Shown: positions 4,128 to 17,748 of the stretch, one piece after another | How the letters are laid out: every line of letters starts with the position of its first letter | How positions within the stretch are numbered: the first letter of the stretch is position 1 | IMG/VR virus record: IMGVR_UViG_3300036832_002070 | Location: 1 to 35,742 of that record | From: a virus | Direction: 5' to 3' (one strand) | Length of the DNA: 35,742 nt | Notes under the pieces: generated by a model | Database searches by the model: none | Told to the model about the DNA's origin: nothing | Seen by the model: the letters and a program-made list of their open reading frames with translations, nothing else | Program-made: the position numbers and the translations under genes

Positions 4128-4283
4128 TCATTTGATCAGATCGCGCAGGCTCGTCTTTGCGAGTAGCTCACGTTCCGATCTTCGCTTTTGCGCTTTCACC
4201 TTGGCTAGGTAGCCGCGATTAAAGATTCCGGAAGGCTGTTTGCCCTTGTCTTTCCACTTATCTTTCTCTTTGGGGTCCGTCAT
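4128..4283 (-). CDS. Small basic protein translationally coupled to cytochrome gene
   Basis: 51 residues, rich in Lys and Arg (starts MTDPKEKDKWKDKGK). The ATG overlaps the stop of the di-haem protein as ATGA, which supports translation by coupling, and it is the last gene of the minus-strand cluster. It stops 4 bases from the stop of the convergent chitosanase gene, and I see no terminator between them. No family recognised. Confidence 0.5.
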   Translation of the reverse strand: MTDPKEKDKWKDKGKQPSGIFNRGYLAKVKAQKRRSERELLAKTSLRDLIK

Positions 4284-5485
4284 ATAGATTCGAGAAATGC
4301 GATTAGGGCAGCTTGATCGGCCGCAGGAAGCGCGGCGAATTTGGTTCGGATCGCAGCAGCCTCGCCGTCGTGCTGCAAGATCGCAGATGGGATGGTTGGC
4401 GCTCTCCCATCGTGGAGGTAAGGAGTTCTGAAACGCAAACCCCATAGTGGCGCTGTCCGCATAAAGGTTGGGCCGGCCGCAGCCTGAACAATCCCATCAC
4501 CGAGCGTGGCCATGTCGTGCAAAAGCAGATCCGAATAGAGCGGCACGTTTTTAAAGCCGAGCGCCTGGATGTTGCTGGCAGTGGTCGTCATGCTCGGCTT
4601 ATGGCACGCCACGCAATTAACCGCCGTGAAGAGTTGCTGACCCATCTGAGCCTGCACAGTGAGCGGCAAGGTCGGTGGCGGAGCAAGCAGTCGCATAAAA
4701 TCTGCGAATTCATCGATGTTAGCCGTATGACCGTCGGTCTGTGGCGGTCCGCCGTTCTCGACATCCTGGAGTTGATCAAAGGCAAATCCTGTCAAAGCGG
4801 GTTCAACCGCCAGCAGAGCCGACTGATTGCGTTGACCGGTGATGCTTCCCGAAGGAGCGATGTCCTTATCGAATCCAGGAATGCGCGTGGTAACGCCCAT
4901 TTCGTTCAGATAGGCATCCGCCGCGAAACCCAGTAAACTGGCCTCCTGACACTTCCAGCCGAATCGGCCTACGGCGTTGATGTTCGGCGTGCCATTCTGG
5001 CCGGCAGTCGGATCATTCACGATCGCTACAGTCCCCGTGACGCCGTCAGCAGTTTTCGGTGTATGGACATTGGCCTGAATGGTCTGGTCGGGGATGGCTT
5101 CAATCAAACCCATGCCAAAAAGCGCAGTGGCTTTGCGATGCGCTACCACGGTTGCGTCTGGCGGAACTTGGTCCTGGATTTGGAACCCTCCGAAAGACGG
5201 TACAATGCTCGACTGATGCAAGAGGTCAGAAGCCTGAAAAGCGTTCATATAGCGCGTCTCCGTCACGGTGCTAGCGCCGCCAACCGCCGCATTATTATGA
5301 CATGCTACGCATGACTGATTATTAAAGAGGGGTCCGACTCCCTCGGAGATTTGTTCCACCTGCTGGAATTCAGCAAGGGCCACTTGGAATTGCGCTTGTT
5401 GCGCCGCGGTAAGCCCAGCCAATGGCGCACCGATCTGGCCGTAAGCAGTCCCCGCCATCAGTAAAAGAACGCAGAGCAGCCTCAT
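4280..5485 (-). CDS. Di-haem oxidoreductase (DUF1111/DHOR-type, peroxidase-like)
   Basis: 401 residues. An N-terminal signal peptide (MRLLCVLLLMAGTAYG, cleavage near 16-17) sends it across the cytoplasmic membrane. Two c-type haem sites, CVACH at 59-63 and CVACH at 291-295, lie in the two halves. The surrounding motifs GPLFNNQSC (51-59), GRFGWKCQEASLLGF (173-187) and the C-terminal block with LWGLRFRTPYLHDGRA are those of the di-haem oxidoreductase family (Pfam DHOR), related to bacterial cytochrome c peroxidases. Expected role: periplasmic electron transfer or peroxide reduction, which needs the host cytochrome c maturation system. The length and both haem sites look intact. It starts at the stop of the lipoprotein gene (TAATG overlap). 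Such a gene is unusual in a phage and is treated here as cargo. Confidence 0.85.
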   Translation of the reverse strand: MRLLCVLLLMAGTAYGQIGAPLAGLTAAQQAQFQVALAEFQQVEQISEGVGPLFNNQSCVACHNNAAVGGASTVTETRYMNAFQASDLLHQSSIVPSFGGFQIQDQVPPDATVVAHRKATALFGMGLIEAIPDQTIQANVHTPKTADGVTGTVAIVNDPTAGQNGTPNINAVGRFGWKCQEASLLGFAADAYLNEMGVTTRIPGFDKDIAPSGSITGQRNQSALLAVEPALTGFAFDQLQDVENGGPPQTDGHTANIDEFADFMRLLAPPPTLPLTVQAQMGQQLFTAVNCVACHKPSMTTTASNIQALGFKNVPLYSDLLLHDMATLGDGIVQAAAGPTFMRTAPLWGLRFRTPYLHDGRAPTIPSAILQHDGEAAAIRTKFAALPAADQAALIAFLESI

Positions 5486-5943
5486 TATTGTGATGATTCA
5501 CTTAGAGACTGTTCCGCAGTTCGGAACCGTTTCTGGTCTTCGGGCGAAGTCAGGTTGCCAATGAGGGCGGCTCGCGACTGCTGCAGGATTGCCAGACGCC
5601 GGTTGATCTCCGCTATGTGCGCGGCAATTGCGCTCGGCTCACTCAAGGCCGGAGGCGCCGGCACTGATCTAACGGATTCGAATGAATCTACGTACTGGTT
5701 CCAGGCTTGGTTGGCGGCCGGATTTGAGAAAGCTATCTCTGGAGGGGGAGTTGTAACTGGGGGTGGTGGTGAAGACGATTCGGGGTTTGCTGGACTGTTT
5801 GCCCACCCTGCGGCCGGAGTCGAAGGCGGGTTGGGTGGCTGCTCTTCTTCTTTGGCAAGCTGATGAACGGCAGGCGTGGCCGGAGGCTTGCTGCAGCCGG
5901 CCACGCTCAAGAGTGCAATGAGGATTCCAATTTTAGAATCCAA
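5485..5943 (-). CDS. Pro-rich lipoprotein
   Basis: 152 residues. A short signal peptide ends in the lipobox VAGC, with lipidated Cys at 17. A Pro/Ser-rich linker (about 20-75, with runs of Pro) follows, then a helical C-terminal domain (about 85-150) of coiled-coil character. It is probably anchored in the cytoplasmic or outer membrane by lipid. It sits between the beta-helix protein (11-base overlap) and the di-haem protein (1-base overlap), so the three are one transcript and probably act together in the periplasm. No domain family recognised. Confidence 0.7.
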   Translation of the reverse strand: MDSKIGILIALLSVAGCSKPPATPAVHQLAKEEEQPPNPPSTPAAGWANSPANPESSSPPPPVTTPPPEIAFSNPAANQAWNQYVDSFESVRSVPAPPALSEPSAIAAHIAEINRRLAILQQSRAALIGNLTSPEDQKRFRTAEQSLSESSQ

Positions 5944-6649
5944 GCATCAGTCCTCCGATATGCAGGGTTCCGTTCACGCTCGAGTTAAACCGGAACCGGT
6001 CGCCGCCGTTACCCGCCAAAAAGCCAGCTGCCGCTTCATTGGCAAACAGGCAATCCTCAATTAGGTTGCCTGCAGTGGGCGAACTCACCGACACAATGCC
6101 AAAGGTCTGGTTTTGTGAGTTATCAGCCTGGAACCGATCGCCGCCATCACTCAGAATATCGTAAATGCCGTAGGTGCCCCCATCGAAATTGCAGTGTTCA
6201 ACCTCATCGATAGAACCGCGAACCAAGAGCACTCCGATCCAGTCATTGTCGAAGTTGACGTTCTTGACCAGATTTTTCTGGTTTTGACCATTGGCGTTGC
6301 CGTTGATGTAAATGCCAAACTTATTAGCGGCGCTGAAGTTATCGATATCACCATTCTGAATAGTGACTTCTTCGTGACTGTTTACGAGGATTCCAACATT
6401 GCCACCAGTCGAGTTGAGCGAACGTCCATTCAAATCGATAACCACTTGATTGGCATTGACCGTAATTCCGGTTCCGGTAGCGACATTCAAGTCCGCGGGA
6501 AGATAAAAATTACCTGGCGCCGTGATCGTGAAGGGAACGCTGGTGATTGCCGTTGCGTTAACGGTTTGTGCCGTCTCGAAGGCCCACGTTGTCCGTGCTA
6601 CCGCCCAAAGCGCTGCAAACGCTACCACTGTACACAGAAGTTTTTTCAT
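5933..6649 (-). CDS. Exported right-handed beta-helix protein
   Basis: 238 residues. Signal peptide MKKLLCTVVAFAALWAVARTTWA. The mature part has the repeating short-strand pattern with regularly spaced Asn, Gly and Asp seen in parallel beta-helix proteins (pectate-lyase-like fold). Examples are GITVNANQVVIDLNG (about 60-74), GILVNSHEEVTIQNG (about 85-99) and GIYINGNANG further on. No catalytic residues of a known lyase or hydrolase can be assigned. Cell-surface or periplasmic binding, or polysaccharide processing, is possible. It is the first protein-coding gene after the tRNA-like gene on the minus strand, followed directly by the lipoprotein gene. Confidence 0.75.
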   Translation of the reverse strand: MKKLLCTVVAFAALWAVARTTWAFETAQTVNATAITSVPFTITAPGNFYLPADLNVATGTGITVNANQVVIDLNGRSLNSTGGNVGILVNSHEEVTIQNGDIDNFSAANKFGIYINGNANGQNQKNLVKNVNFDNDWIGVLLVRGSIDEVEHCNFDGGTYGIYDILSDGGDRFQADNSQNQTFGIVSVSSPTAGNLIEDCLFANEAAAGFLAGNGGDRFRFNSSVNGTLHIGGLMLGF

Positions 6650-6696
6650 GGCTCAAGCTCTACCAGATACCCAACAGGCATTCAACTCTGAAAAAA

Positions 6697-6768
6697 AGCC
6701 GGGAGCAGGAATCGAACCTGCGTTTGGAAGCGTTGCGCGCTAACGCCTTACCACTTGGCTATCCCAGC
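6697..6768 (-). tRNA. tRNA-like gene, probably tRNA-Cys(GCA), with weak anticodon arm
   Basis: On the minus strand the acceptor arms GCTGGGA and TCCCGGC pair with one G-T. The D-arm is GCC..GGC around AAGTGGTAA, and the T-arm is GCAGG/CCTGC around TTCGATT. Aligned by position with standard tRNAs the anticodon is GCA (Cys), and the next 3' base after the acceptor is T, matching the U73 discriminator of tRNA-Cys. Oddities: the anticodon stem TTAGC/GCTTC has only three pairs, and position 33 is C instead of the near-universal U. No CCA is encoded, and a run of seven T follows directly. It may be a degenerating or phage-specialised tRNA. Confidence 0.65.
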
Positions 6769-6780
6769 AATCGGCATGGA

Positions 6781-6930
6781 TCAATCGTCTTGACTGAAGG
6801 TTTCTACGTCCGTGTGTTGCGTGCGCTCAATCCCCTCATAAAACTCCCAAGCGCAATACAGGAGAACGCCGGCGATCATCAATATTCCAGAACCGCCAAG
6901 AAGCAGCAGCATGATCAAGAGAGTTTTCAT
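6781..6930 (-). CDS. Tiny single-pass membrane protein
   Basis: 49 residues. The hydrophobic segment is residues 4-26 (LLIMLLLLGGSGILMIAGV), followed by an acidic tail rich in Glu, Asp and Thr. It lies just upstream of the tRNA-like gene on the minus strand. Its ATG overlaps the stop of the preceding tiny frame as ATGA. No family recognised; the coherent membrane segment and coupled start are the support. Confidence 0.45.
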   Translation of the reverse strand: MKTLLIMLLLLGGSGILMIAGVLLYCAWEFYEGIERTQHTDVETFSQDD

Positions 6931-7058
6931 TCGGAGTCGGTGATCAGGGGACGGGAGGCGGCCCGATATTCTTTTTCTGTCGCCAACGTAACCACCACCA
7001 CTGTCGTTTTTTTGCGCTCATGGTTGAGCTTTATCGCGTTTGCCCACGTGCTGGTCAA
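6927..7058 (-). CDS. Possible 43-residue protein with TTG start
   Basis: The frame starts at a TTG directly following the stop of the 28-residue frame at 7059-7145 and ends in an ATGA overlap with the 49-residue membrane protein. The composition looks protein-like (KKTTVVVVTLATEKEY in the middle) but there is no homology signal. A 25-residue frame within the same region (MSAKKRQWWW...) is the alternative. Confidence 0.25.
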   Translation of the reverse strand: MTSTWANAIKLNHERKKTTVVVVTLATEKEYRAASRPLITDSE

Positions 7059-7145
7059 TCACATTGTCCGGACCAGCCAGCAGATCCAGACCGTGGCGAC
7101 GAAGAGCCCGATCGCCAGGGGCCAATCAAAATCCATTTGGCTCAT
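7059..7145 (-). CDS. Possible 28-residue membrane peptide
   Basis: Begins MSQMDFDW and continues as one hydrophobic segment (LAIGLFVATVWICWLV) ending RTM. It is the first of three closely packed minus-strand frames before the tRNA-like gene. It is very short, so it is supported only by hydrophobicity and by its packing against the next frame. Confidence 0.3.
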   Translation of the reverse strand: MSQMDFDWPLAIGLFVATVWICWLVRTM

Positions 7146-7337
7146 TTCTGCTGAGTTCGCTGCTGATGCCTCGAGAGCCGGGTGTAGAAAATTTTTAATA
7201 GCAGAGGATCAGCGATATTGCCTTCCTTGCCATTGTCGAGCCTGTACGAAATCCCGCTTGGCCGGGATGACACGAGGTGCTGCCAGTAAAACTGACTGCG
7301 AGCGGATTTAAGCATGCGGGAACCCTCTTCGCCGCGA

Positions 7338-7366
7338 TTGCTTCTGTCAATATTTTCTGCTATATT
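7338..7366 (+). promoter_or_regulatory. Sigma70-like promoter candidate for the early operon
   Basis: TTGCTT at 7338-7343 and TATATT at 7361-7366 have a 17-base spacer, and a T-rich run follows the -10. It lies 43 bases before the first plus-strand gene (7409) in the divergent region facing the minus-strand cluster. The rest of 7146-7408 shows a short ATCCCG/CGGGAT hairpin (about 7250-7268) and nothing else I can call. Confidence 0.4.
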
Positions 7367-7408
7367 TTTTCAAGATGTTGCCGTATTTGGTTATGCGAAT
7401 GCAAGACA

Positions 7409-7639
7409 ATGAACGCGAACGAAATCAAGATATGGACCAAGCCCCAGCTGGAGGCTAAACGTCTCTGCATCGAGCGATATTATCGCCTCGCTTACGGAGA
7501 GTCAGGAAATCTCAAAGTATGGAAGGATAGCCCACAGACTACTCGATGTCAGGAAGCGGCGTTTGACTGCGATGTCGAGAATGGATGTCTCAAATACATC
7601 GAACCGAAAAACTGCAGACCATACTTCAGAGCTTCTTAA
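7409..7639 (+). CDS. Small Cys-containing protein, unknown
   Basis: 76 residues, starting MNANEIKIWTKPQLEAK. It is mixed-charge with five cysteines (CIERYYR, CQEAAFDC, GCLKYIEPKNC), which could bind metal but match no pattern I know. First gene after the early promoter candidate. The stop is immediately followed by an A-tract and a hairpin. Confidence 0.5.
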   Translation: MNANEIKIWTKPQLEAKRLCIERYYRLAYGESGNLKVWKDSPQTTRCQEAAFDCDVENGCLKYIEPKNCRPYFRAS

Positions 7640-7672
7640 AAAAACCGCTCAAGCCGGTGAAGACTTGAGCGG
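7638..7672 (-). terminator. Intrinsic terminator facing the minus strand
   Basis: Perfect 9-base arms at 7645-7653 and 7664-7672 flank a 10-base loop, with a run of seven A at 7638-7644. On the minus strand this is a clean stem plus T-tract terminator. As at 270-304 it points away from the plus-strand genes just downstream, and no minus-strand gene feeds it. A small antisense RNA from 7673-7780 is one possible source. Confidence 0.6.
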
Positions 7673-7781
7673 CGTCACGCAATGCAACAAAACCCCATCG
7701 AATAAGAGCTATCGAATAAACAATATAACCAGGGGAATCGTATCCGACTCCTCAAGAAAGGCAAGACGCATCTTTCCAAAT

Positions 7782-8672
7782 ATGAATGAATCCACTACGC
7801 CGGCCGCTGAGCCGGTTCTTCCGTTCACTGCGCCGCCCACTACTCAACCAGATGGTGCTAAGGCGACAGTCCCGCCAAACCCCTTCGCGGAACGCGCCGC
7901 AGCCGAAGCAGGCGAACGCGCGAAAAAACCTTCGCTACTATCCGCGGTCATCTACAAGAAACGCAGGCGACCTCTTTATGCCGTGCTCTACGGCCCTCCG
8001 GGCATCGGAAAGTCGACGTTCGGCGCGACATTACCCAAGCCCATTTTCATCCAAACCGAACGGGGTCTCGACCAGCTCACGACGCCGAGATTCCCGATCG
8101 TCCACAGTCTCGATGAGTACAAGCTGCAAATCCAGGCGTTGCTCCACGAAGAGCATGATTACCAGAGCGTGATCATCGATACGATTGACGGACTGGACCT
8201 GCTCGTTCAGGCCGAGGTTTGTCATGAAGGGAAGTGTGATTCGATCGAATCGTATGGGGGTGGATATGGCAAAGGCTGGAACCGCGCGCGTGAGATCTGG
8301 GTGCGGATCCTCGATCGACTGACCGACATGTCGGAACGCTGGAATATCCTCATGATCTCACACGCGCAGATCAAGACGATCACTGACCCGCAAGTAGGAA
8401 CACCATTCGATATCTGGAAAATGCGGGTAGCTGATAGGTCTCAGGATGTCATCAAGCAGAGCGTTGATCTGCTGCTTTTTGTCAATTTGATACGCACGGT
8501 GAGTAAAGACTCACCTCGCGCACGCAAAGGTCGCGCAATTGTTAGTGAAGATCGCGAAATGTGGACGGCACCTACCACGGGAATCGAGTGTAAGAACAGA
8601 TTTAGCCTGCCTAACCCGATGCCGTTCAGTTGGCAAGCATTAGAAACCGCAATTGAAGAATTTCATAAATAA
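7782..8672 (+). CDS. Sak4-like RecA-fold ATPase (phage recombinase/annealing factor)
   Basis: 296 residues from the ATG at 7782; the frame is open further left but that part reads as non-coding. Residues 1-50 are a Pro/Ala-rich tail. A RecA-type NTPase core follows: Walker A GPPGIGKST at 71-79, IFIQTERG (88-95), and Walker B VIIDTIDGLD (130-139). This is the pattern of the AAA_24/Sak4 family of phage ATPases, which work with SSB in single-strand annealing recombination. The context agrees, because an SSB-like gene and an exonuclease gene follow in the same operon. Confidence 0.8.
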   Translation: MNESTTPAAEPVLPFTAPPTTQPDGAKATVPPNPFAERAAAEAGERAKKPSLLSAVIYKKRRRPLYAVLYGPPGIGKSTFGATLPKPIFIQTERGLDQLTTPRFPIVHSLDEYKLQIQALLHEEHDYQSVIIDTIDGLDLLVQAEVCHEGKCDSIESYGGGYGKGWNRAREIWVRILDRLTDMSERWNILMISHAQIKTITDPQVGTPFDIWKMRVADRSQDVIKQSVDLLLFVNLIRTVSKDSPRARKGRAIVSEDREMWTAPTTGIECKNRFSLPNPMPFSWQALETAIEEFHK

Positions 8673-8683
8673 AACCTAATAAA

Positions 8684-8947
8684 ATGATCCATATTCATTA
8701 TAAAGGACACCAAGTGAGCAGTTACGACGGAAAAGTTGCCGTAACGCTAGTGGCTCGTGCCCTTGACGGTAAATGTAATTACGAACTCTATTTGAACGAA
8801 AACGTTTTGAGAGCCATTTCCGCTGATTGCCAGACCGAAAAGGCCAGGGCTTCAGCTAGCCTGCTCGCTGAACGCGACGCGCTTAATGACGAACTTGAAA
8901 AACTGAAAGAAGAAACTGCAACAGCAACCATGAAGGAGCAACTATGA
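8684..8947 (+). CDS. Small coiled-coil protein, unknown
   Basis: 87 residues. An N-terminal beta-type half (1-50) is followed by a charged helix (about 52-87, ERDALNDELEKLKEE). The stop overlaps the ATG of the SSB-like gene as ATGA. It lies between the Sak4-like ATPase and the SSB-like protein, so a role in recombination is possible but unproven. Confidence 0.6.
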   Translation: MIHIHYKGHQVSSYDGKVAVTLVARALDGKCNYELYLNENVLRAISADCQTEKARASASLLAERDALNDELEKLKEETATATMKEQL

Positions 8948-9447
8948 GCAAATATACGTACCAGGGGGATGTTGAGGAGCGGCCGGTTGGAGGACCACTA
9001 CCGGAAGGTGATTACGACTTTGTCGTGACTCGTTGTGGTGAGCCCTACGAATCGAAAGCCGGCAACATTGTGTTGAGCGTGGAACTCGAGATCAAGCCTA
9101 GCGGGCGCACGGTCTTCTACAACCCGTGGGTAGGCACGGACAAGAACGGTGAGAAGCGCGACGGGATCGCCGACTTCTTGCACGCCATCGGGCGGGTGCC
9201 GAAGATTGGCGAAGAGCCGCGCTGGTCGAGCCTGGAAGGTGCCCGCGGCCGTCTGCGCTTGACGACGGAGATTGCCGGTGCCGGCAAATACCAGGGTCAA
9301 AGCGTAAACAAGGTGCACTACCTGTACCGACCGCACGTCGCTGCGGGAAGTGAAGCGGTGACGACTTATTCAGCGGACGAATTTAAACAGGCGCGTGAAG
9401 AGGCTAAGCGTCGAGCAGGTGGCGAGCCTGACACCATTCCTTTCTGA
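8944..9447 (+). CDS. SSB-like protein (DUF669-type)
   Basis: 167 residues. PLPEGDYDFVV (18-28) and the following beta-rich region resemble the phage DUF669/OB-fold single-strand DNA-binding proteins found beside Sak and RecT genes. The protein ends EPDTIPF, very like the acidic DDDIPF tip by which bacterial SSB recruits partners such as RecQ, ExoI and PriA. It is coupled by ATGA overlap to the gene before and lies 3 bases before the exonuclease. Expected role: coat single-stranded DNA during replication and recombination. The family call is from pattern; the C-terminal tip is seen directly. Confidence 0.7.
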   Translation: MSKYTYQGDVEERPVGGPLPEGDYDFVVTRCGEPYESKAGNIVLSVELEIKPSGRTVFYNPWVGTDKNGEKRDGIADFLHAIGRVPKIGEEPRWSSLEGARGRLRLTTEIAGAGKYQGQSVNKVHYLYRPHVAAGSEAVTTYSADEFKQAREEAKRRAGGEPDTIPF

Positions 9448-9450
9448 GTC

Positions 9451-10578
9451 ATGGACACCGACGATCGCAAGAGTCTTCCCAGCGCATCGAGCTGGCGACG
9501 TTACGAGCTTTGCCACGGCAGTTGGCAACTTGAGGCCGAAGCTCGCAAACTCGGGCAGGTGGCGCACACCACCTCGCCTTCGGCTCGCAGTGGAACGCGC
9601 ATTCACGCGTACCTAGCTGGCATCGCCGATGAGGATGGCAAAGAAATCGCGCTAAGTCCGGAAGAACAGGCGGCTGCCGATACCCTGCAAGATCAGGTGC
9701 AACAACAGATTGCGCGCATTTTCGGCGATGCGCCTTACCTCGAGCTGAATGAAAAACGGCTTTGGCTCTCCGATAAAAACATTCCGTGGCTGAGCGGTCG
9801 TTTCGATCGCTGCGTGTATACGCCCGAGACCGCTCTGTTACTGGATTATAAAACATCACACATTGCGCCAGAGCCAGCCGAAATCAGTAGTCAACTCAAG
9901 GTGCTGGCGGTCCTGGTCGCGCTGAACTTGCCGCTGGTAAAGGAGGTCATCGCACAAGTCGTCTCGCCCTACTTTGGAGTGACCGAAGCGCGGTACGATA
10001 TCGCCTCGTTGTCGCAAGCCTACAAGGACATCTTGGACACGCTGGAAGCTATCCACGATAAAAGCGCACCGCTGGTTCCGGGAGTTGTTCAATGCCGTTA
10101 CTGTCCAGCGATCCTGATATGCCAGGCGGTGAAAGATACTATTCGGCCGTTGGTCAGTCTGCAGGTGAGCGAGTTGCCGACTGATGGTGAGCGTGCGGCG
10201 CGACTTCTCGACGAGGTGGAACTTCTGCTTGTACACCTCGAGGAGATCAAGGCCTACTACAAAGGGAGATTGGCACAGGATCCGACTTTGAAGATTCCCG
10301 GGTACGGGCTGGTTCCTGGAAACGCGGTGCGAGAGATCAGCGATTGGCCGAAGGCGCGCGAAATCTTGCGGCGCTACGTGCCGGACGGCGAGTTGGAAGG
10401 GATCCCGACCTTGGCGCAGATCCAGCAGGCGTTGAAAAAGGCATTGAAGCTTTCTTCGCCGAAAACCGCTGCTGAAAAGCTGAACGAACTGCTGGGCGGT
10501 ATAATTATATTAAGCCAAAATCAACCAACATTTAAGAGGGTTTCAGGTGCGTCGTTAATAAAAGAACTTAACAAATGA
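9451..10578 (+). CDS. PD-(D/E)XK exonuclease with Cas4-like Fe-S cysteines
   Basis: 375 residues. RecB-family nuclease motifs: SASSWRRYELC near the N-terminus (C21), GTRIH (48-52, H52), GRFDR with D119, LLDYKTS with D132 and K134, then QLKVLAVL (149-156). Three more cysteines, C215, C218 and C224 (CRYCPAILIC), complete the four-cysteine pattern of Cas4, AddB and DUF2800-type nucleases that carry a 4Fe-4S cluster. It probably resects DNA 5' to 3' to feed the Sak4/SSB pair. The C-terminal 150 residues are helical. Its stop overlaps an ATG (ATGA) at the start of the pentanucleotide array. Confidence 0.8.
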   Translation: MDTDDRKSLPSASSWRRYELCHGSWQLEAEARKLGQVAHTTSPSARSGTRIHAYLAGIADEDGKEIALSPEEQAAADTLQDQVQQQIARIFGDAPYLELNEKRLWLSDKNIPWLSGRFDRCVYTPETALLLDYKTSHIAPEPAEISSQLKVLAVLVALNLPLVKEVIAQVVSPYFGVTEARYDIASLSQAYKDILDTLEAIHDKSAPLVPGVVQCRYCPAILICQAVKDTIRPLVSLQVSELPTDGERAARLLDEVELLLVHLEEIKAYYKGRLAQDPTLKIPGYGLVPGNAVREISDWPKAREILRRYVPDGELEGIPTLAQIQQALKKALKLSSPKTAAEKLNELLGGIIILSQNQPTFKRVSGASLIKELNK

Positions 10579-10580
10579 TT

Positions 10581-10913
10581 TTGGCAAGCTCAGGCAAGGT
10601 GCGGTCCGGTAGTGTTTGGCAAGCTCGGGTGTGGCAGGGCGGGCCACGGTCCGATTTGGTTGGGCAGGGGTTTGGTAGGGTATGGTCCGGCCGGGTTAGC
10701 TTTGGCGGGGTCCGGTCCGGTGAGGTGAGGCATGGTAAGGCAAGGCTGGGTTCGGTACGGTGCGGTTCGCGTCTGGCTGGGTTAGGTCCGGTCGGGTAGT
10801 GTTCGGTAAGGCGGGATCGGGTGGGCTTAGGTAGGGTATGGTGCAGTGAGCTTCGGTGGGGTGGGGCATGGCGAGGCCTGGTCTGGAGAGGTGTGTTATG
10901 GCGAGGGCTTGGT
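10581..10913 (+). repeat. Degenerate pentanucleotide (NNGGY) array, about 66 units
   Basis: 333 bases divide into about 66 consecutive 5-base units with consensus NNGGT or NNGGC. By hand count roughly 53 units have GG at positions 3-4, and nearly all end in a pyrimidine. Register is kept over 18, 19 and 27 units in a row and shifts by one base only at about 10671, 10767-10772 and 10908. Positions 1-2 are almost free. The array begins 2 bases after the exonuclease stop and ends 1 base before the start codon of the RAMP-like gene, and its last units supply a GAGGG that can serve as ribosome binding site. GG every five bases also makes a chain of potential two-layer G-quadruplexes on the plus strand. 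The frame 10575-10799 is open across it but looks like a by-product. Confidence 0.9.
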
Positions 10914-10914
10914 T

Positions 10915-11607
10915 ATGACCGGAATGTCGAAAGCGACACTGCCGCTCTCATCGCAAGATGGAAGCGGCAGCACGCTTATGATAAAAACAAAAACAAACAG
11001 ACTAGAAACAATAGGCTCAGTTTCGGATGGAGGCAATCATGATGTCGAACTTGCGTTGCCGTATGCGGTTTCTTTGCGATTACAGGAATCAACCGATTTC
11101 CTTTTCCATCGGTGGAATAATGACGCAGTTGCAGCTAAAAATGCCGCAGCGAAGGGATCAAAAGCCAAAAAAACAGATAACATAGAATCCTATGTGTACC
11201 GGGCTGACAATGGCAATCTGGCGATTCCCGGCGAGTATTTGCGTTCCTCGATTATCGGAGCGGCGAAGTTTAAGCAGGATCCTAGAAGTCCGCGCAAAAG
11301 TGCTCAGGATTTGTTCAAGGCGGGCGTAGTTAGTATGACGTTGCTGGCAGATCTCGGCGTGAAAGACTGGGATTATCTTGATCGGCGGCGTGTACTTGTT
11401 CAGAGGAGCGCGATTATGCGCATTCGGCCGGCTATAAAAACTGGCTGGAAGGCTGAATTCGTATTGTCGGTATTGGTGCCCGAATATATCAGCGAAGAAT
11501 TTCTTCGTGAAATGGTTGGCCTAGCTGGGCGACTAATTGGTCTTGGCGATTTTCGGCCGACGTTCGGCAGGTTTGACATCATTGAATGGAGACTGTTAAC
11601 AATTTGA
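10915..11607 (+). CDS. RAMP/Cas7-like phage protein linked to the pentamer array
   Basis: 230 residues from the ATG at 10915; 10924 is an alternative. After a variable N-terminus (1-45) come a beta-strand-like segment VELALPYAVSLRL (44-56), the motif NLAIPGEYLRSSIIGAAKF (101-119), a basic block RRRVLVQRSAIMRIRP (157-172), and GLGDFRPTFGRF (209-220) before W225. The 101-119 motif resembles the IPGSSLKGALR motif of CRISPR RAMP proteins (Cas7 group). The 209-220 motif resembles the C-terminal Gly-rich loop of that superfamily. It may be an RNA- or single-strand-DNA-binding protein with an RRM-like fold. The fold is inferred by eye, not proven. It lies inside the recombination operon, directly behind the repeat array. 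Confidence 0.7.
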   Translation: MTGMSKATLPLSSQDGSGSTLMIKTKTNRLETIGSVSDGGNHDVELALPYAVSLRLQESTDFLFHRWNNDAVAAKNAAAKGSKAKKTDNIESYVYRADNGNLAIPGEYLRSSIIGAAKFKQDPRSPRKSAQDLFKAGVVSMTLLADLGVKDWDYLDRRRVLVQRSAIMRIRPAIKTGWKAEFVLSVLVPEYISEEFLREMVGLAGRLIGLGDFRPTFGRFDIIEWRLLTI

Positions 11608-11813
11608 CACCGGAAATCCGCCAGAAATTCAAACGATTGAGCCTGTACTATCTGCGGGTAGCAAACGATTTGGATCGAGACGCTTGGGCGGAAGCGTTAG
11701 CTGATCTTGCCGAGCTGAGCGGATGCTGTCGCCGGCTTTGGCATGAAATTGCGCGGGAACCAAAAAATGAAAAAAGAGAGAATGAAGGAAATGTTACAGA
11801 CAAAAATCATTGA
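11586..11813 (+). CDS. Small helical protein, unknown
   Basis: 75 residues, mainly helical and charged (METVNNLTPEIRQKFKRL start). It overlaps the end of the RAMP-like gene by 22 bases in another frame and overlaps the next gene. No family recognised. Support comes from the packed operon and ordinary protein composition. Confidence 0.5.
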   Translation: METVNNLTPEIRQKFKRLSLYYLRVANDLDRDAWAEALADLAELSGCCRRLWHEIAREPKNEKRENEGNVTDKNH

Positions 11814-12030
11814 ATCGTTAATCGAACAGTCACGCTCGCTATTGGAAGATCACTGGAGCGAAGCTGAACGCATGTTTGGGGCGCAGAAAATTAAGATCGG
11901 CATGGTGTTCAGCGTTGAGCGCGGATCCGCTGAATCGACCTGCAAGGTATCCATTTCCTTCGGGGCACGCGTCAAGGATTCCAATGAGGTACTAGTAAGC
12001 GATCAACCAGAATTAGCGCTGAAGAAATGA
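11767..12030 (+). CDS. Conserved-looking phage protein, unknown
   Basis: 87 residues from ATG 11767; an ATG at 11782 with a purine-rich AGAGAG upstream is a good alternative. An N-terminal helix is followed by a beta-rich half with MVFSVERG, CKVSISFGARVKD and VLVSDQPELAL. I recall similar KVSISFG..VKD...DDP proteins in other phage recombination operons but have no named family or function. It ends in an ATGA overlap with the next gene. Confidence 0.6.
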   Translation: MKKERMKEMLQTKIIESLIEQSRSLLEDHWSEAERMFGAQKIKIGMVFSVERGSAESTCKVSISFGARVKDSNEVLVSDQPELALKK

Positions 12031-12275
12031 CTGAACTGGTTACCGCGGCATTGGCAGCGCTTAAGATGGCTGATGATCCTGAAAATCGGTTAGCGCTCGA
12101 GATCGCGTGCTATTTTCTCTGGGCCGCGCAATGCGATGATTTTGAGTGGATAGATGCACAGATCGAGGAAATGAAGCGGCTTGAAAACCTGGAGACTCTG
12201 GAGCGTCTGCAAAAACTTCATGAATGGTGCCGATCTCATAAGGCAGGACGGAGAGGCAATGGGAATCCGGCCTGA
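12027..12275 (+). CDS. Small helical protein, unknown
   Basis: 82 residues, helical and acidic in the middle (WIDAQIEEMKRLENLETLERLQKL), with a basic tail RRGNGNPA. It starts within the stop of the gene before (ATGA) and overlaps the start of the VRR-NUC gene by 17 bases. No family recognised. Confidence 0.5.
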   Translation: MTELVTAALAALKMADDPENRLALEIACYFLWAAQCDDFEWIDAQIEEMKRLENLETLERLQKLHEWCRSHKAGRRGNGNPA

Positions 12276-12678
12276 ACAGATTACCGAGGCAATGATCGCG
12301 GGCGATCCGAGCGGAGCATTACAGAATTTGCGGGATCAGGCTCTGGGCAATCGCCCGGTGCCGTACACGAGCGTTCTGGAGCGCGAGGAGCAAGCCAAAC
12401 TAGCTACGTGGCTGAATGACCAGAAACGCGCCGGTCGCCTGCAGTTCGATTGGAGTGCTACGCACCGCAAGATAACACGCCGGGTCGGAATGCCGGATTT
12501 CAGCGTGTGGGCGAATGGCTGCGCTCTCCTGGGTGAGATGAAACGCAGGGGCAGCAAGCTTCGTCCCGACCAGGCTGAGGTGCACGCGGAATTCTGGCGC
12601 AGCGGAACGCCGGTTTTTATTTGGTACAGCGCCGCGGAAGCAATCGATTGCATTGAAGCGTGGCTTTGGAGCATATGA
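12259..12678 (+). CDS. VRR-NUC-type nuclease
   Basis: 139 residues from ATG 12259, chosen because GGAGAGG lies a few bases upstream. The C-terminal 80 residues carry the VRR-NUC form of the PD-(D/E)XK fold: RVGMPDFSVW (75-84, D80), LLGEMKRRG (90-98, E93 and K95), LRPDQAEVHAEFWRSG (101-116, Q105), then VFIWYSAAEA. Stand-alone phage VRR-NUC proteins are thought to resolve branched DNA such as Holliday junctions, which fits its place between recombination and replication genes. Confidence 0.8.
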   Translation: MGIRPEQITEAMIAGDPSGALQNLRDQALGNRPVPYTSVLEREEQAKLATWLNDQKRAGRLQFDWSATHRKITRRVGMPDFSVWANGCALLGEMKRRGSKLRPDQAEVHAEFWRSGTPVFIWYSAAEAIDCIEAWLWSI

Positions 12679-12884
12679 ACACACATGGCGGCCGGCGAAT
12701 CGGCAGCGGTCGCAGGAAAAAACCCGACTGGATTACGAAGGGTTTGCGCCTGCAACAGCTGACGATCGAAATGCTGGTCGAGGTAGCGCATCGCTTGCGC
12801 ATGAGCCAAAGCAGTATCGCAAACGATCTTTTAGTAAAAGAATTGAGAAAACTCTTGAGAAAATTCGAAAACTCTCAAAAATAG
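12675..12884 (+). CDS. Small ribbon-helix-helix-like DNA-binding protein
   Basis: 69 residues. The ATG at 12675 overlaps the nuclease stop (ATGA). The Arg/Gly-rich N-terminus GGRRIGSGRRKK (5-16) resembles the tails of many small phage DNA-binding proteins. The pattern LRLQQLTIEMLVEVAHRL..SQSSIANDLLVKEL then fits a ribbon-helix-helix fold. It may be a regulator or an accessory to the nuclease. The family is assigned from pattern only. Confidence 0.6.
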   Translation: MNTHGGRRIGSGRRKKPDWITKGLRLQQLTIEMLVEVAHRLRMSQSSIANDLLVKELRKLLRKFENSQK

Positions 12885-12890
12885 ATCATC

Positions 12891-13253
12891 ATGCTCCAAT
12901 TCACGGATCGAGAGCTTAAGCTCATTCGGCTCATGCTGAATTCAGCGGCAGCCAAAGGCGAGATTGAAAATGCTGCGCGCATGTTTGTCGAGGCCTTACG
13001 CGCGCGCTCGATTAGCGCGCAGGATATTGAGGAATCGTTGAACAAGGTGACCGCGCCGGATTACGGCCACTGGGCACCGGATTACGGTTTATGTACGATG
13101 CCGTGGGGAAAGCATAAGGCGCAACAGTTCAAGGATATTCCGCCCAGTTACTTTCGTTACATCGTGCAGTGGATCGAGGATCCGCAAGGAGACCGATTGC
13201 CGCGCATGGCGGGCATTCTGAGCGACATTAAGGCGTGGCTGGCTCAGCAGTGA
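12891..13253 (+). CDS. DUF3820-like protein (ExoX C-terminal type)
   Basis: 120 residues. The N-terminal half is helical (1-50). The C-terminal half contains MPWGKHKAQQFKDIPPSYFRYIVQW (from about 69), the signature of the DUF3820 domain also found at the C-terminus of ExoX-type exonucleases. No exonuclease domain is attached. Probably a DNA-metabolism accessory protein. It starts 6 bases after the previous stop. Confidence 0.7.
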   Translation: MLQFTDRELKLIRLMLNSAAAKGEIENAARMFVEALRARSISAQDIEESLNKVTAPDYGHWAPDYGLCTMPWGKHKAQQFKDIPPSYFRYIVQWIEDPQGDRLPRMAGILSDIKAWLAQQ

Positions 13254-13308
13254 GGCTTTTGGGTTAAAGCTCGCCAAAACGCAACGTAGAGCGTTTAAAG
13301 GCTATTCC

Positions 13309-13632
13309 ATGAGCACAGACGCATTGTGCCAAGCCCTTGAGGTATTGCCAATTCCCGTCTTGTGGCGCCGGCTAGGGTTGCCTGGCTCGGTCCGCGGCAA
13401 TTGTACGGTCAGGAGCCCACTGCGTTCGGACGACCGAACCCCGAGCTTCTCGATTTACGCGGACGGTCGACGCTATATTGACCACTCAACAAAAGAAGGT
13501 GGCGACGCGTTCGACTTTTTCTGTGCGATCGCTAAGCTCGATAAACGTACAGCCTACCCCCAATTTCTCGAATTGGCTGGGGTCGGTTCCCGCCAGGGGA
13601 ATCGGCGCAATCGGTGGGCGTACCGTCAATGA
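13309..13632 (+). CDS. CHC2-type primase zinc-domain protein lacking zinc ligands
   Basis: 107 residues. The block NCTVRSPLRSDDRTPSFSIY (31-50) followed by RYIDHSTKEGGDAFDFF (55-71) is the CHC2 primase zinc-binding fold (CPFH..K.PSF....C..C..GGD...F). However, only C32 of the usual four ligands is present, and DHS replaces the CxxC. It lies 28 bases before the helicase/primase gene, so the priming enzyme seems split into two proteins. It may recognise template or bind single-stranded DNA. Confidence 0.7.
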   Translation: MSTDALCQALEVLPIPVLWRRLGLPGSVRGNCTVRSPLRSDDRTPSFSIYADGRRYIDHSTKEGGDAFDFFCAIAKLDKRTAYPQFLELAGVGSRQGNRRNRWAYRQ

Positions 13633-13660
13633 AAATGAAAAGTGTTTGGCAAAAAGTAGG

Positions 13661-15325
13661 ATGTCTAACCAACCATTTGTCTGGTTTGATTGTGTCTCGG
13701 ATTTTCGTGAAACGGAGATTATTGGATTGGCCGCTGCGCGCGGATATCGGGTCGAATTTGTCAAGTGGTTGCATCAGCGCGGTGAAATCGGCCGCTATTA
13801 CGTCCCGGGCACCGGCTGGTGCACGGCGCTACCGATTCGCGACGGCAATGGCGACGTGTTTCGATGTCATTGTCGAGGCGAGTCGAAAAAAATCTTCAAG
13901 TATGAACCTGCCGATCCGGACAAGGAATCGATCAGTGCGCTGGTGTTGGGCGATCCTGCTTCGGCGCTTCGCGTGCATCCTCACGAGAGCGAATGGGACG
14001 CATTCGCGCAGATCAGTGCGCTCGGGCTGGAAGAGGAGATCGATCGCGGAGAAGTCTGTGTGATCGCGACGCGCGGCGCTGCGGACAGCAAACGAATAAG
14101 CCCAGACACAATATCGGTAGCCAGTAGAGCGAGCATTTATTTGCATCCGCAAAACGATACGCCAGACCGATACGGCCGAGTTGCCAGTGAAGAATGGTTA
14201 AAGGGTTGTGTAGAGGAACTCGGTGAAGCCTATGTGGTGCGAATACCGTGCATGCACAAAGACCTCAACGATTGGATTCGAGCACCTGATTTCACCACTG
14301 ATCAGCTGGAATACGCCATTGACAACGCGCTGCTCGAAAAGCGCAAAGGGAAGTTTCCGGAGATCGTTACCGGCGATATCATTGAAGCGGTGCATCAGCC
14401 ATTGCCCGCTGAGGTGATCCGCGGAATCCTCGCGATTGGCGAAAAGGGGTCACTGGTTGGCGGCAGCAAAATGTATAAAACCTGGACGCTGCTGCATCAG
14501 GCCTTGGCGATAGCCAGCGGGACAGATTGGTGGGGATTTCCCTGCCCGCAAAATAATTCGTTATTCCTGAATTTGGAATTGCCGCCACCCTATTTTGAGG
14601 AGCGGGTGCGCACGGTAGCATTCGCGATGGGAATTAAGGTACCGGCTAATTTTCACGTCTGGCATTTGCGCCGGTCGAAGCTGGGCGATCCTGAACGCTG
14701 GCAAGATTTTCTTGAGGAACTGCTGAAGTGCGCTCTGGCGATCACCAATCCGTTTATCACGAGCGATCCGATTTACAAGCTGCTGGGTGGCCGCAACGAG
14801 AACGATGCTGGCGATGTCGGCACATTGCTGGAACAAATTGATGATTTAATTGAGTTGACGAACGGGAGCAACTTTTTCGGTCAGCACACGACCAAAGGCA
14901 ATCAGGCAGCAAAGGAAGCTATTGATTTGGCAGCTGGCAGCGGAGTCTTTGCACGCGATCCGGACACCATCTTCCCGATGAGAGCGCACACGAAGGACGG
15001 AGCATTCGTGGTTGAACCGATATTGCGCAATCATGTGCCGATCAGTCCGTTTGTGGTTGAGTGGAAACCGCCACTATTCGTGCGTAACCCGACGCTGGAC
15101 CCAAGCTCTCTCAAAGAGCCTAAAAAGCGCGCCAGCAAATACGACATGCACATGTTGGCGTACTGGCTCGGCAAGAAGCGGCTTAAAAGCAAACAGTTTG
15201 CCATTTTGGTACGCGACGAGACTGGGATGAGCGCAGCGACATTTTACCAATTGCTCAAGGAAGCCGAACAGGCTGGTCTAATTCGGCGCGACCCGGTCGA
15301 TCCGGAATACTGGACAAAGAAATGA
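13661..15325 (+). CDS. Primase-helicase: Toprim-like domain plus RepA-type ATPase
   Basis: 554 residues from ATG 13661. The frame is open to about 13478, but that part overlaps the previous gene. Residues about 90-210 look like a Toprim domain (SALVLGDPAS, HESEWDA at 108-114 as in EGExDA, VIATRGA, then DLNDW). Residues 250-450 are an AAA_25/RepA-like hexameric helicase core: degenerate Walker A GGSKMYKTW (267-275), LFLNLE (301-306), SDPIYKLLGGRNENDAGDV (368-386), QHTTKG (408-413) and AAGSGVF (424-430). The C-terminus (about 480-554) has a winged-helix pattern. This is probably the replicative helicase-primase. Walker A reads K-M-Y-K-T rather than G-K-T. Confidence 0.8.
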   Translation: MSNQPFVWFDCVSDFRETEIIGLAAARGYRVEFVKWLHQRGEIGRYYVPGTGWCTALPIRDGNGDVFRCHCRGESKKIFKYEPADPDKESISALVLGDPASALRVHPHESEWDAFAQISALGLEEEIDRGEVCVIATRGAADSKRISPDTISVASRASIYLHPQNDTPDRYGRVASEEWLKGCVEELGEAYVVRIPCMHKDLNDWIRAPDFTTDQLEYAIDNALLEKRKGKFPEIVTGDIIEAVHQPLPAEVIRGILAIGEKGSLVGGSKMYKTWTLLHQALAIASGTDWWGFPCPQNNSLFLNLELPPPYFEERVRTVAFAMGIKVPANFHVWHLRRSKLGDPERWQDFLEELLKCALAITNPFITSDPIYKLLGGRNENDAGDVGTLLEQIDDLIELTNGSNFFGQHTTKGNQAAKEAIDLAAGSGVFARDPDTIFPMRAHTKDGAFVVEPILRNHVPISPFVVEWKPPLFVRNPTLDPSSLKEPKKRASKYDMHMLAYWLGKKRLKSKQFAILVRDETGMSAATFYQLLKEAEQAGLIRRDPVDPEYWTKK

Positions 15326-15342
15326 AAAAACAGTCCGCGAAA

Positions 15343-15512
15343 ACTGCTCCAACTACTCCAACTACTCCAAATTGGAGTTGCTGGAGCACTGCTCCAACTA
15401 CTCCAATTAAGCCTTATAATTGGAGCTGGAGTACTGCTCTACTCCAGCGCTTCTAAAGAAAAGCGCGCTGGAGCAGGAGAGTAGAGCAGTTTTTACTCCA
15501 GCCTCTAATTGG
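15343..15512 (+). repeat. CTCCA/TGGAG iteron cluster, candidate replication origin
   Basis: ACTGCTCCAACTACTCCAA occurs at 15343-15361, is extended by a further ACTACTCCAA to 15370, and recurs at 15388-15406. Inverted copies lie between and after them (TTGGAGTTGCTGGAGC at 15372-15387, AATTGGAGCTGGAG at 15418-15431, and TCTAATTGGAGC ending at 15514). Palindromes form at several nested scales. TATAAT occurs at 15415-15420. Short iterons in both orientations directly after the helicase gene suggest an origin or a repressor-binding region. Confidence 0.6.
15433..15494 (+). terminator. Large hairpin with T-tract, possible operon terminator
   Basis: A perfect 12-base outer stem (15433-15444 with 15479-15490) encloses a second stem, CCAGCGCTT with AAGCGCGCTGG. 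The 3' side has an unpaired purine-rich bulge. TTTTT follows at 15490-15494. It could end the early operon. Because it is built from the same CTCC/GGAG words as the iterons it may instead be part of an origin. Confidence 0.45.
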
Positions 15513-15551
15513 AGCAATCTTACAACATAACTAAAACCAACACAATGTAAT

Positions 15552-15761
15552 ATGAATGAAATGAATGCCGCAACTGCTCTTCGCCAACTTGTTGACGAGT
15601 GCTTCGTCGCCAGAACCGACAGACCTTTCAGCGACCTGATCAACGCTTTGCTCGCTCAAGGCCAACTCGATCTTGCTATTCAGGTCCTGCTTACCCGGCA
15701 GGTTGATATTGTTGCCAGAACGCTTACTGAAATCACTATCCGACTCGAAAAATCCGAATAA
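15552..15761 (+). CDS. Small helical protein, unknown
   Basis: 69 residues, almost entirely helical and acidic, without Cys-rich or DNA-binding motifs. It starts after the repeat region at the first of two closely spaced ATGs and stops 1 base before the vWA gene ATG, so the two are probably a pair. No family recognised. Confidence 0.55.
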   Translation: MNEMNAATALRQLVDECFVARTDRPFSDLINALLAQGQLDLAIQVLLTRQVDIVARTLTEITIRLEKSE

Positions 15762-15762
15762 A

Positions 15763-16458
15763 ATGGCCAGATTCGTCTCTAAATCGCTACCCCACAGTGG
15801 AGACCTCATCACGAAGTCTCCTCAAAGCGCTATCCCCGAAATCGCCCTGACCCTCGATCGCTCCGGATCCATGCTCCCTAATCGCCTGGCCGCCGTTCAA
15901 GGCGCCAATATTTTCCTCAGCGCTCAACAAACCCTCAATCTCCCCGCTCGCTTCACTTTCACTACCTTCAGTAACCTCATCTCCACCATTCATGACGCCG
16001 TGCCCATCCACCTCGCTCACCCTTTAAGCCCGCAACAATTCGCGCCACTTGGCCCGACCGCGCTTTGCGACGCCATTGGCGACCTTTGCGACCGTATCGG
16101 CCAACGATTTGATTCTACCGAATTCAACGATTCACTCGCAAAGCCTCGCGTGCTTATCGCTATTCTGACCGATGGTCAGGAAAATGCTTCCACCCACTGG
16201 TCTCAATTCAAACTCCAGGAACTCATCATCTTTCGCCAATCCGTGCACCATTGGCAGTTCCTCTTTATTGGCCCAGACGACGAATCGGCCCAGTTCGCTC
16301 GCTCTATCGGTATCCCCGCCGATCATATCACCACCTTCGATCCTTATAACCCACAACTGCTCCAAAATGCCTTGAGCCGCCTCACCATCGCCACTGCTGC
16401 TTTCTTGACCAATGAGCCCGGTTTCGCCAAATTCTTCCAGCTCCCACCCATTTGCTAA
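15763..16458 (+). CDS. von Willebrand factor A (vWA) domain protein
   Basis: 231 residues. The metal-ion-dependent adhesion site is complete: D32-R-S34-G-S36 in LTLDRSGSM, T99 in LGPTAL, and D137 in AILTDGQEN. The spacing and strands (IALTLD, RFTFTTF, LIAILTDG, WQFLFIG) fit one whole vWA domain with no signal peptide or extra domain, so it should act in the cytoplasm as a metal-dependent protein-binding module. It has no MoxR-type ATPase neighbour. The coding strand is C-rich, unlike genes on either side. Its role in the phage is unknown. Confidence 0.8.
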   Translation: MARFVSKSLPHSGDLITKSPQSAIPEIALTLDRSGSMLPNRLAAVQGANIFLSAQQTLNLPARFTFTTFSNLISTIHDAVPIHLAHPLSPQQFAPLGPTALCDAIGDLCDRIGQRFDSTEFNDSLAKPRVLIAILTDGQENASTHWSQFKLQELIIFRQSVHHWQFLFIGPDDESAQFARSIGIPADHITTFDPYNPQLLQNALSRLTIATAAFLTNEPGFAKFFQLPPIC

Positions 16459-16514
16459 AAGTTAAGGTTTTGTTTGACACCTGGAACCCCCATATGCGAC
16501 TACAACAACACACC

Positions 16515-16730
16515 ATGAGCAGACGTTCCCATAAGTTGCTGGTCCTCGTTAGCGATGAAGCACTCGCCGCTAAACTTATCGCTATCGCCGGTCAGCTCGA
16601 TGTTCCCATCTCCCGCCTGGCCCGGCACCTCATCGAAGTCGGGTTGCGTACCGTTAAAGATGCCAATGGCCTGCTCTTCACTACCGCCAGTACCCAGATC
16701 CCAGCCGAATTGCTCCAAGACCTAAAGTGA
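16515..16730 (+). CDS. Small ribbon-helix-helix-like regulator
   Basis: 71 residues from ATG 16515; ATG 16494 is an alternative. LLVLVSDEALAAKLIAIAGQ followed by VPISRLARHLIEVGLRTV fits a strand-helix-helix DNA-binding protein. A TTGACA-like element (about 16474-16479) lies upstream. It overlaps the next gene as GTGA. Possibly a transcriptional regulator of this block. Confidence 0.55.
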   Translation: MSRRSHKLLVLVSDEALAAKLIAIAGQLDVPISRLARHLIEVGLRTVKDANGLLFTTASTQIPAELLQDLK

Positions 16731-17278
16731 ATGCGCCTAGCGACCCGCCAGCCAACCCGTATGAAGCTCTCGCCCTACGCTTCGGCGCTATCTATCAGCA
16801 GGAACGTACCAATGAGGAAATCCGTTCCCCAGCCCTTAGCGCTCAAGCCCAAGCCTTGCTCAAAAATAACCCCAAAGCCTATGGCACCGCTATCGAATTG
16901 CTCCTCGAGGGCGCCACCAGCCTCCAGATCGCTACCCGACTCAAACTCAAACTCCCCCTAGTCAAATTCCTCGCACGCCAACATGCCGAAATCAGAGCCG
17001 CCCGACGCGATCTCGTCGTCGGGAACCTCGAGGAATCTATCCTCTCGCTCTCTACCCGCCTCAGCGATCAAGCCGATCAGGTCCCCATGCGCGATGTCGC
17101 TCGCACCCTGTCCACCGCAGTCGATAAGCTCGCTACCCTTACCGGCAACCCTTCCACTACCGTCGATATCCGCCACCACGTCTCCCGCGAACAGGTCCTA
17201 GCCTTGTATGACAAACTCAAAAATACCGCCCAGCCCTCTCAACCCAAAGATCTGGACGAGCCCGCTATCCCAACCTAA
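16727..17278 (+). CDS. HTH protein, possible small terminase subunit
   Basis: 183 residues with a GTG start overlapping the previous stop (GTGA). Residues about 50-95 contain a helix-turn-helix pattern (AIELLLEGATSLQIATRLKL..PLVKFLARQ). This is followed by a long helix and DKLATLTGNPSTTVDIRHHVS (from about 132), a phrase typical of phage DNA-packaging HTH proteins. It lies about 1.1 kb before the large terminase, so a small-terminase role is possible. The gene at 17749 competes for that role. Confidence 0.5.
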   Translation: MNAPSDPPANPYEALALRFGAIYQQERTNEEIRSPALSAQAQALLKNNPKAYGTAIELLLEGATSLQIATRLKLKLPLVKFLARQHAEIRAARRDLVVGNLEESILSLSTRLSDQADQVPMRDVARTLSTAVDKLATLTGNPSTTVDIRHHVSREQVLALYDKLKNTAQPSQPKDLDEPAIPT

Positions 17279-17748
17279 CTGAACAAAACCCTAAAGCTGG
17301 TTGCCACCACAAGTAGCTTGATGTCAAATTACTTGGCTTCGGCAAGGTGTTAGGACAGAACGATTGTCGCGTGGAACAATCGTGTAAGTGCTTCAGGATC
17401 AATGCTTATAACATCAGACAATATGTGAAGTATCAAGTTGCCCTCGGGTCAAAAAGCGTAAGCTTTATAAGCTTGCAAAGGGGGGTGGGGGTCAGGCCAC
17501 TGGGGGTGCCCCGGTCGCCGAGCGTCCCACGCGTCTGGTGGTTGCAGGAAAATTTTTTAAAAAATTTTAAAATTGAAAAATCGGGTAGCTGCGAAGAAGA
17601 GGAAAAAGGGCAAATGGGTTCTGCTGTACCACGAAGGGGTTAAGGGTACCGACCATTGGGGTTTTTGGGTGAGGTGTCAAGCATAAAAGCGGTTTTTAGG
17701 CCTGATTGTCTTGCTAGCTATTGGCTTTAGAGCTAAGACTTGGGGTTT
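17279..17748. other. Non-coding region with hairpins and A/T tracts
   Basis: About 470 bases without a convincing gene. It holds a perfect hairpin with ACGATTGT arms (17360-17367 and 17376-17383, 8-base loop) and paired AAGCTT sites around TAT (about 17459-17473). It also has three long G-runs (about 17477-17512) and an A/T block built of TTTTTTAAAAAA and TTTTAAAA (about 17549-17574). Placed between the regulatory block and the packaging genes, it is a candidate for the late promoter and/or the terminase recognition site (pac/cos). Confidence 0.5.

Follow-up and report, generated by a model that had tools for sequence, protein, structure and literature searches.

The five-base repeat in the viral DNA analysed here, a stretch of 35,742 nucleotides (hereafter the window), is very probably an array of guide RNAs (vrRNAs) of the Viral Interference Programmable Repeat (VIPR) system, which would work together with the Vipr protein encoded downstream of it. 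Its first guide would be directed against sister phages that are free of the cassette, with a diverged allele of the target gene sparing the carrier. VIPR has been described in a preprint (PMC13142463; bioRxiv 2026.04.26.720920, April-June 2026), the only report retrieved by a search of the open literature for vrRNA, the Vipr protein and the full name of the system. According to this work, which presents VIPR as predating CRISPR, a phage RAMP protein, Vipr, acts with vrRNAs composed of YNNGG repeats (9-16 per vrRNA), in which the NN pairs recognise double-stranded DNA and one target base is skipped between successive pairs; seven VIPR types are mentioned, as are staggered arrays and guides directed at other VIPR loci, and the mechanism of target repression has been published for the VIPR of SUSP1 (PMC13142463). 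Since the window Vipr is homologous to that system and its code holds on the present data, we infer a corresponding mechanism for the window. The array would be transcribed into RNA, with one Vipr subunit gripping each GGY and the two free bases of each unit being presented to DNA; successive NN pairs would read the target with one base skipped between them, and the bound complex would repress the target gene. The 65 units would comprise several guides in tandem, the first of which (17 units) would aim at the 3' end of a recombination exonuclease gene in close relatives without a VIPR cassette at the same site. The carrier would be spared by its own copy of this gene end, which adjoins the array and is diverged at the guide-read bases. 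As guide and spared allele are neighbours, recombination should transfer both at once, in the manner of a weapon with linked immunity.

The periodicity of the repeat is pronounced. Its period-5 Fourier power (positions 10581-10913) amounts to 7.63, far above the 0.69±0.42 (maximum 3.00) obtained for 2,000 dinucleotide-preserving shuffles, and, over the entire record of 35.7 kb, the windows with the highest period-5 power all overlap this region, with GG-GG coincidences peaking at lags of 5, 10, 15 and so on up to 30. The consensus is GGY, more than GG alone, and the base composition at the two free positions is approximately flat. In a count from the unit listing, GGY starts 50 of the 65 units; among the others, GCT is the most frequent start (5/65). 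The period proposed in the initial annotation is thus real, but its description as strict is slightly too strong because 15 units deviate from GGY, and the register is broken twice, by one extra base at 10668 and by six bases at 10769-10774, yielding blocks of 17, 20 and about 28 units (Table 1). Stop codons are present in all three forward frames (7, 1 and 4), so the array is non-coding, which rules out a coding repeat and agrees with the earlier argument that protein coding could not maintain such a period; the accompanying claim that the repeat did not arise by slippage expansion was also judged right. CRISPR arrays consist of identical repeats of about 24-48 bases with unique spacers between them, whereas a tandem repeat search of the window array gave only short partial arrays with periods of 10, 11 and 15.

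Table 1. Features of the VIPR locus and its surroundings in the window.
Feature	Position	Strand	Remarks
Di-haem oxidoreductase/cytochrome c gene	4280-5485	-	Pfam DHOR 3.5e-45
DUF2800 / PD-(D/E)XK exonuclease gene	9451-10578	+	Pfam DUF2800 4.7e-12; phrog_69 exonuclease 2e-30
Diverged AT-rich exonuclease 3' end	10499-10578	+	Own allele; left edge of the cassette relative to L265
Array	10583-10914	+	About 65 five-base units, GGY plus NN
Guide block 1	10583-10667	+	17 units; target is the exonuclease 3' end of L265
Guide block 2	10669-10768	+	20 units, new register; no target found
Guide block 3	10775-10914	+	About 28 units, last two weak; no target found
Possible guide-RNA 3' tail	10915-10977	+	Two hairpins, predicted fold only
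vipr, RAMP/Cas7-like	10978-11607	+	209 aa; alternative start 10915; PDB 36pp match, Csm3/Cas7 fold
Small gene right of the cassette	11586-11813	+	Directly follows the exonuclease gene in L265; right edge, alignment resumes at 11612

The identification of the downstream gene rests on a PDB sequence and the predicted fold, since no Pfam or NCBIfam family was matched by the Vipr alignment. A 16-member profile of the protein retrieved exactly one PDB sequence, the entry 36pp annotated as 'SUSP1 Vipr protein' (E=3e-12), which was also found in a search with the single sequence (9.3e-7). Structure comparison of its AlphaFold2 model (mean pLDDT 79.5) returned Csm3/Cas7 chains, with an E-value of 6e-7 in Foldseek and a Z score of up to 12.8 in VIA (over 164 residues, at an rmsd of 4.1). 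That both lists, which have entries to April 2026, contain CRISPR RAMPs and not 36pp is no evidence against the Vipr identity. Judged by homology and modelled fold, the gene therefore encodes a Vipr protein; the alignment shows it to be intact and conserved. The segment between the array and vipr possibly constitutes the 3' tail of the guide RNA: the predicted fold of 10895-10980 has an energy of -34.1 kcal/mol (z -3.25). Alternatively, the segment could be a vipr leader, because the frame is open from the ATG at 10915.

The association between array and vipr extends to the relatives of the window Vipr, which comprise 49 loci (15 viral loci and 34 genome loci). In 46 of them, vipr has an array on its own strand no more than 1.5 kb away, as compared to none of 100 control viral loci (880 kb), the exceptions by this criterion being L012, L022 and L164; by the criterion used, no array was found on the opposite strand in the 49 relatives or the window. 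Across 1,812 units, the arrays of the relatives show G at frequencies of 0.97 and 0.86 at the first two positions and C or T at 0.94 at the third, followed by two near-flat positions. This conserved spacing with variable NN bears out the view of the initial annotation that selection acts on the GG spacing while the NN positions are free. Departures of single units from the consensus are thus common everywhere, as evident from the value for the second G, and it appears improbable that the window array has decayed to an inactive state and persists by chance, as its 15 off-consensus units and two register breaks might indicate: vipr is intact and conserved, and guide 1 retains 29 matches in 34 bases to a sister phage, off-consensus units included.

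Several of these and further loci deviate from the common arrangement. L012 (6601-7050) and L022 (6559-6680) contain sub-threshold arrays with many units that have GGA or are devoid of GG, perhaps reflecting a variant consensus. In L016, a single vipr is flanked by two arrays of about 146 (5240-5978) and 84 (6646-7065) nearly unbroken GGYNN units, which greatly exceed the guide length of 9-16 units given in the preprint (PMC13142463), and the final 12 units before vipr aim at the vipr of another phage. L142 has its array (814-873 and 936-1529) on the strand opposite vipr, unlike the 49 counted relatives, and this array targets the vipr of L092. A Stenomitos contig (JAHHIE010000002.1) carries two VIPR loci (L166 and L167), about 100 kb apart, with the same identity and array positions.

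The published one-base-skip code holds on these data. Every 12-unit stretch of all arrays in 170 loci was decoded and searched for on both strands of these loci (1.63 Mb). Skipping one base yielded 18 guide-target pairs at no more than 3 mismatches of 24, whereas the controls (skips of 0, 2 or 4, or guides in reversed or shuffled form) produced between 0 and 2 pairs each, all of them with 3 mismatches; the matches at a skip of 3 were the array matching itself. The targets are codon-aligned, such that the skipped base corresponds to the wobble position. Among them are the vipr genes of rival loci, recognised at the motif KKTDNIETYVYR (L142 against L092, L016 against L028), a DUF669 gene, a DEAD-type helicase gene and ParB-methyltransferase genes, the Pfam names being taken from the guide-bearing loci's own copies. 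Vipr homology, GGY/NN repeats, the skip code and carriage by a phage are all found at the window locus.

For the window array, candidate targets were sought by exact scans of the viral_contigs collection with six seed patterns and by a scan of all 12-unit windows over the loci collected. The 10-unit patterns (units 25-34 and 54-63) had no match in viral_contigs, and the 8-unit patterns found 59 (units 56-63), 21 (units 26-33), 12 (units 3-10) and 8 (units 40-47) stretches in this collection. Among the 101 sites of the 8-unit patterns, only one extends beyond the seed. It lies in L265, a contig of a sister phage, in which positions 4318-4368 match guide block 1 at 29 of 34 NN bases with one skipped base. 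Of the bases outside the seed (units 1, 2 and 11-15), 11 of 14 match, with an estimated probability of about 4e-5 per site, or about 0.004 over the 101 sites. Consistently, the best 12-unit window in 5.08 Mb (both strands counted) was again that of L265, with one mismatch, and the next best in any other locus had four. Agreement with the target tails off in units 16-17, where the register shifts by one base, consistent with a guide boundary at 10668. The remaining 11 sites found with units 3-10 are located in different genes or reading frames. Because the off-consensus units in guide 1 still match the L265 target, such units may be tolerated or even mark positions. Blocks 2 and 3 had no target in the seed scans of viral_contigs or in the 12-unit scan of the loci collected, which also covered the final 6 kb of the L265 record (L281) and gave nothing there among the matches listed, so that most of the window array is unread. 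A 9-unit near match to the array in L053 proved no better than chance.

These results bear on the proposal that the array is a G-quadruplex or R-loop DNA element that loads recombinases, which had been put forward in the initial annotation to explain the spacing and now seems extremely improbable. GG does recur every five bases, one strand is biased towards G and T, and the array contains 12 non-overlapping two-layer quadruplex motifs; however, there are no four runs of at least three G and thus no three-layer motif, GG is followed by a fixed C or T that a quadruplex would not need, the association with vipr is strict, and the series of NN pairs corresponds to a gene in a sister phage. In addition, the predicted folding of the last block with its putative tail barely exceeds that of shuffled sequences (z -1.28). 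Such readings are unnecessary because a Cas7-like Vipr, with its published GGY/NN ladder RNA, explains the spacing and because the NN pairs carry readable target information.

The target in L265 is the C-terminus (KRNAPSFKRVSGEPLRK) of an exonuclease, a homologue of the gene abutting the window array. L265 is collinear with positions 7054-21758 of the window, at 73-95% nucleotide identity per aligned block, and its DUF2800 exonuclease gene is directly followed by the homologue of the window gene located 3' of vipr. Neither an array nor vipr was found in the 14 kb examined. L265 is thus the empty site of the VIPR cassette, represented by this single contig. The window locus gives a first readable target, and it adds a natural target read from sequence together with an empty-site sister phage that marks the borders of the cassette. 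As a separate observation, L265 contains an extra gene at 1737-2465, between its Sak4-like and SSB-like genes, which looks like an HNH endonuclease by eye and is possibly a second selfish element in the same operon.

The window's own exonuclease allele differs sharply from that of L265 next to the array. The blastn alignment of the two ends at 10498, and at the place of the target the own allele reads SQNQPTFKRVSGASLIK; just 22 of the 34 bases of guide 1 agree with this allele, as opposed to 29 in L265. The segment beyond this point (10499-10578) has a GC content of 0.30, the 8th lowest among 3,567 windows of 80 bases, as compared to 0.57 in the rest of the gene and 0.537 at this place in L265. 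At codon positions 1-2 its identity to L265 is 0.62, while the remainder of the gene reaches 0.82, and even at two conserved residues (R and S), the window codons differ from those of L265 in guide-read bases. The own allele thus presumably escapes guide 1. Rather than providing such an escape, the segment may serve to carry the promoter of the array, since it abuts the array and contains a TATAAT-like sequence. We regard this alternative as unlikely: no promoter-like pair was detected at consensus thresholds within 10400-11000, and the two roles would be compatible in any case.

A similar relationship between guide and neighbouring gene emerges for seven other guide sets. In 8 of 8 guide sets with an identified target, the guide aims at a homologue of the gene adjoining its array and is matched less well by the own allele. 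The DUF669 gene just upstream of the L153 array, for instance, matches its guide at 16 of 24 bases, whereas six relatives match at 23 and three more loci (L148-L150) at 19. The corresponding values for relative and own allele, again out of 24, are 23 and 19 for the ParB-methyltransferase gene just upstream in L157 (in frames one unit apart), 22 and 18 for that just downstream in L160, 22 and 19 for the helicase gene just downstream in the L148 group, 23 and 19 for the exonuclease gene just upstream in L165, 21 and 16 for the vipr just downstream in L016, and 21 and 17 for vipr in L142, which lies 63 bases away from an array on the other strand. L171, with a self match of 18/24 and no tested relative, was left out of this count. 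The better fit of relatives is partly a matter of selection, because they were found by searching. In 298 genomes of its class, the L165 guide matched 29 at no more than 3 mismatches, as compared to 0 for a backwards control; ten translated matches all read [IV]A[VI]EKxEPFRCG, whereas the own copy reads IGVEKIEPYRAG, and at least one further class-wide match (G208) is chance-like.

Self-matches were also located relative to the arrays. At no more than 6 mismatches, 9 of 11 lay within 600 bp of the own array, as opposed to 4 of 24 in pooled controls (reversed, 3/13; skip 2, 0/5; skip 0, 1/6), a difference that corresponds to a Fisher probability of 0.0004, or of 0.005 with the four L148-type loci collapsed. 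Proximity alone is not decisive, because at no more than 5 mismatches the self sites (4/4) and those of the reversed control (2/2) were all near the array.

It is conceivable, with about even chances, that the VIPR cassettes of this clade act as selfish elements, combining guides against the neighbouring allele of rivals or empty sites with an own copy altered at the guide-read bases. The case for such linkage rests on the neighbour targets, the six relatives matched by the L153 guide, the class-wide result for L165 and the sharp AT-rich edge in the window. If it is true, recombination at the flanking gene would deliver the guide together with the immune allele and drive the cassette through the phage population, so that it would spread like a homing element or a toxin-antidote pair. 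Keeping a diverged copy of the target beside the guide could also be an answer to the question of how self-targeting is avoided when the rivals are close relatives, and a general neighbour rule would predict that unread arrays target their adjoining gene. The VIPR array may nevertheless be real and its neighbour targeting a mere by-product of rivals sharing genes and own alleles drifting, without any logic of weapon and immunity. We consider this possible, if rather doubtful. Targets necessarily lie in related elements, and the reversed control likewise places its closest self-matches near the array; yet phage and rivals have dozens of genes in common, and all eight targets are array-adjacent homologues. 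Moreover, the excess of array-proximal self-matches at up to 6 mismatches and the confinement of the window's divergence to an AT-rich island at the edge of the cassette speak against a by-product.

Compared with the VIPR of SUSP1, the window shares a RAMP-fold Vipr gene in a phage with an adjoining GGY/NN array, a DNA-reading code that skips one base, placed at the wobble position, and the targeting of competing elements, other VIPR loci among them. It differs in that its Vipr is only distantly related to that of SUSP1, its array has 17, 20 and 28 units without clear internal tails, whereas the preprint mentions staggered arrays, and guide 1 has 17 units rather than 9-16 (PMC13142463). In addition, the locus has no obvious vap gene; none stood out in a clustering of neighbour genes, which was noisy as spurious ORFs were kept, and the neighbours of the window vipr are recombination genes. 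The target, an empty-site allele of the adjoining gene with a diverged own copy, is absent from the main text of the preprint. While VIPR itself is already known, the linkage of a guide to a diverged own allele, likewise absent from that text, thus looks new (PMC13142463).

Among other systems, Class 1 CRISPR offers a structural parallel. Its backbone subunits, Csm3/Cas7, grip the guide RNA periodically. The window Vipr is predicted to share their fold, but the array has a period of 5 instead of 6, with two of five bases informative, and the window contains no repeat-spacer array; no cas genes were recognised among the window proteins searched. In phage PhiPA3, an intron-encoded homing endonuclease reportedly leaves its carrier protected at its own site. 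The likeness to this case (PMC11620839) is one of analogy only, in that an element interferes with a co-infecting relative; the window system would recognise its target through an RNA guide instead of endonuclease cleavage, and its protection would come from diverged adjoining sequence and not from an insertion.

The window belongs to a tailed phage, as it contains terminase, major head and tail genes, and Sak4-like, SSB-like and DUF2800 exonuclease genes lie upstream of the array. Its lineage is barely sampled, because the terminase gene (18378-19991) encodes a TerL that is at best 30% identical to those of deposited phages (Phage C75C1). Positions 10300-11700 had no DNA match in deposited phages. 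An Rfam scan of the window detected a tRNA-Cys only. Together with the DHOR gene and two unnamed genes, this tRNA gene lies on the minus strand at 4280-6768, between the tail/lysis and the recombination genes, a composition that suggests host-like cargo or an integration scar.
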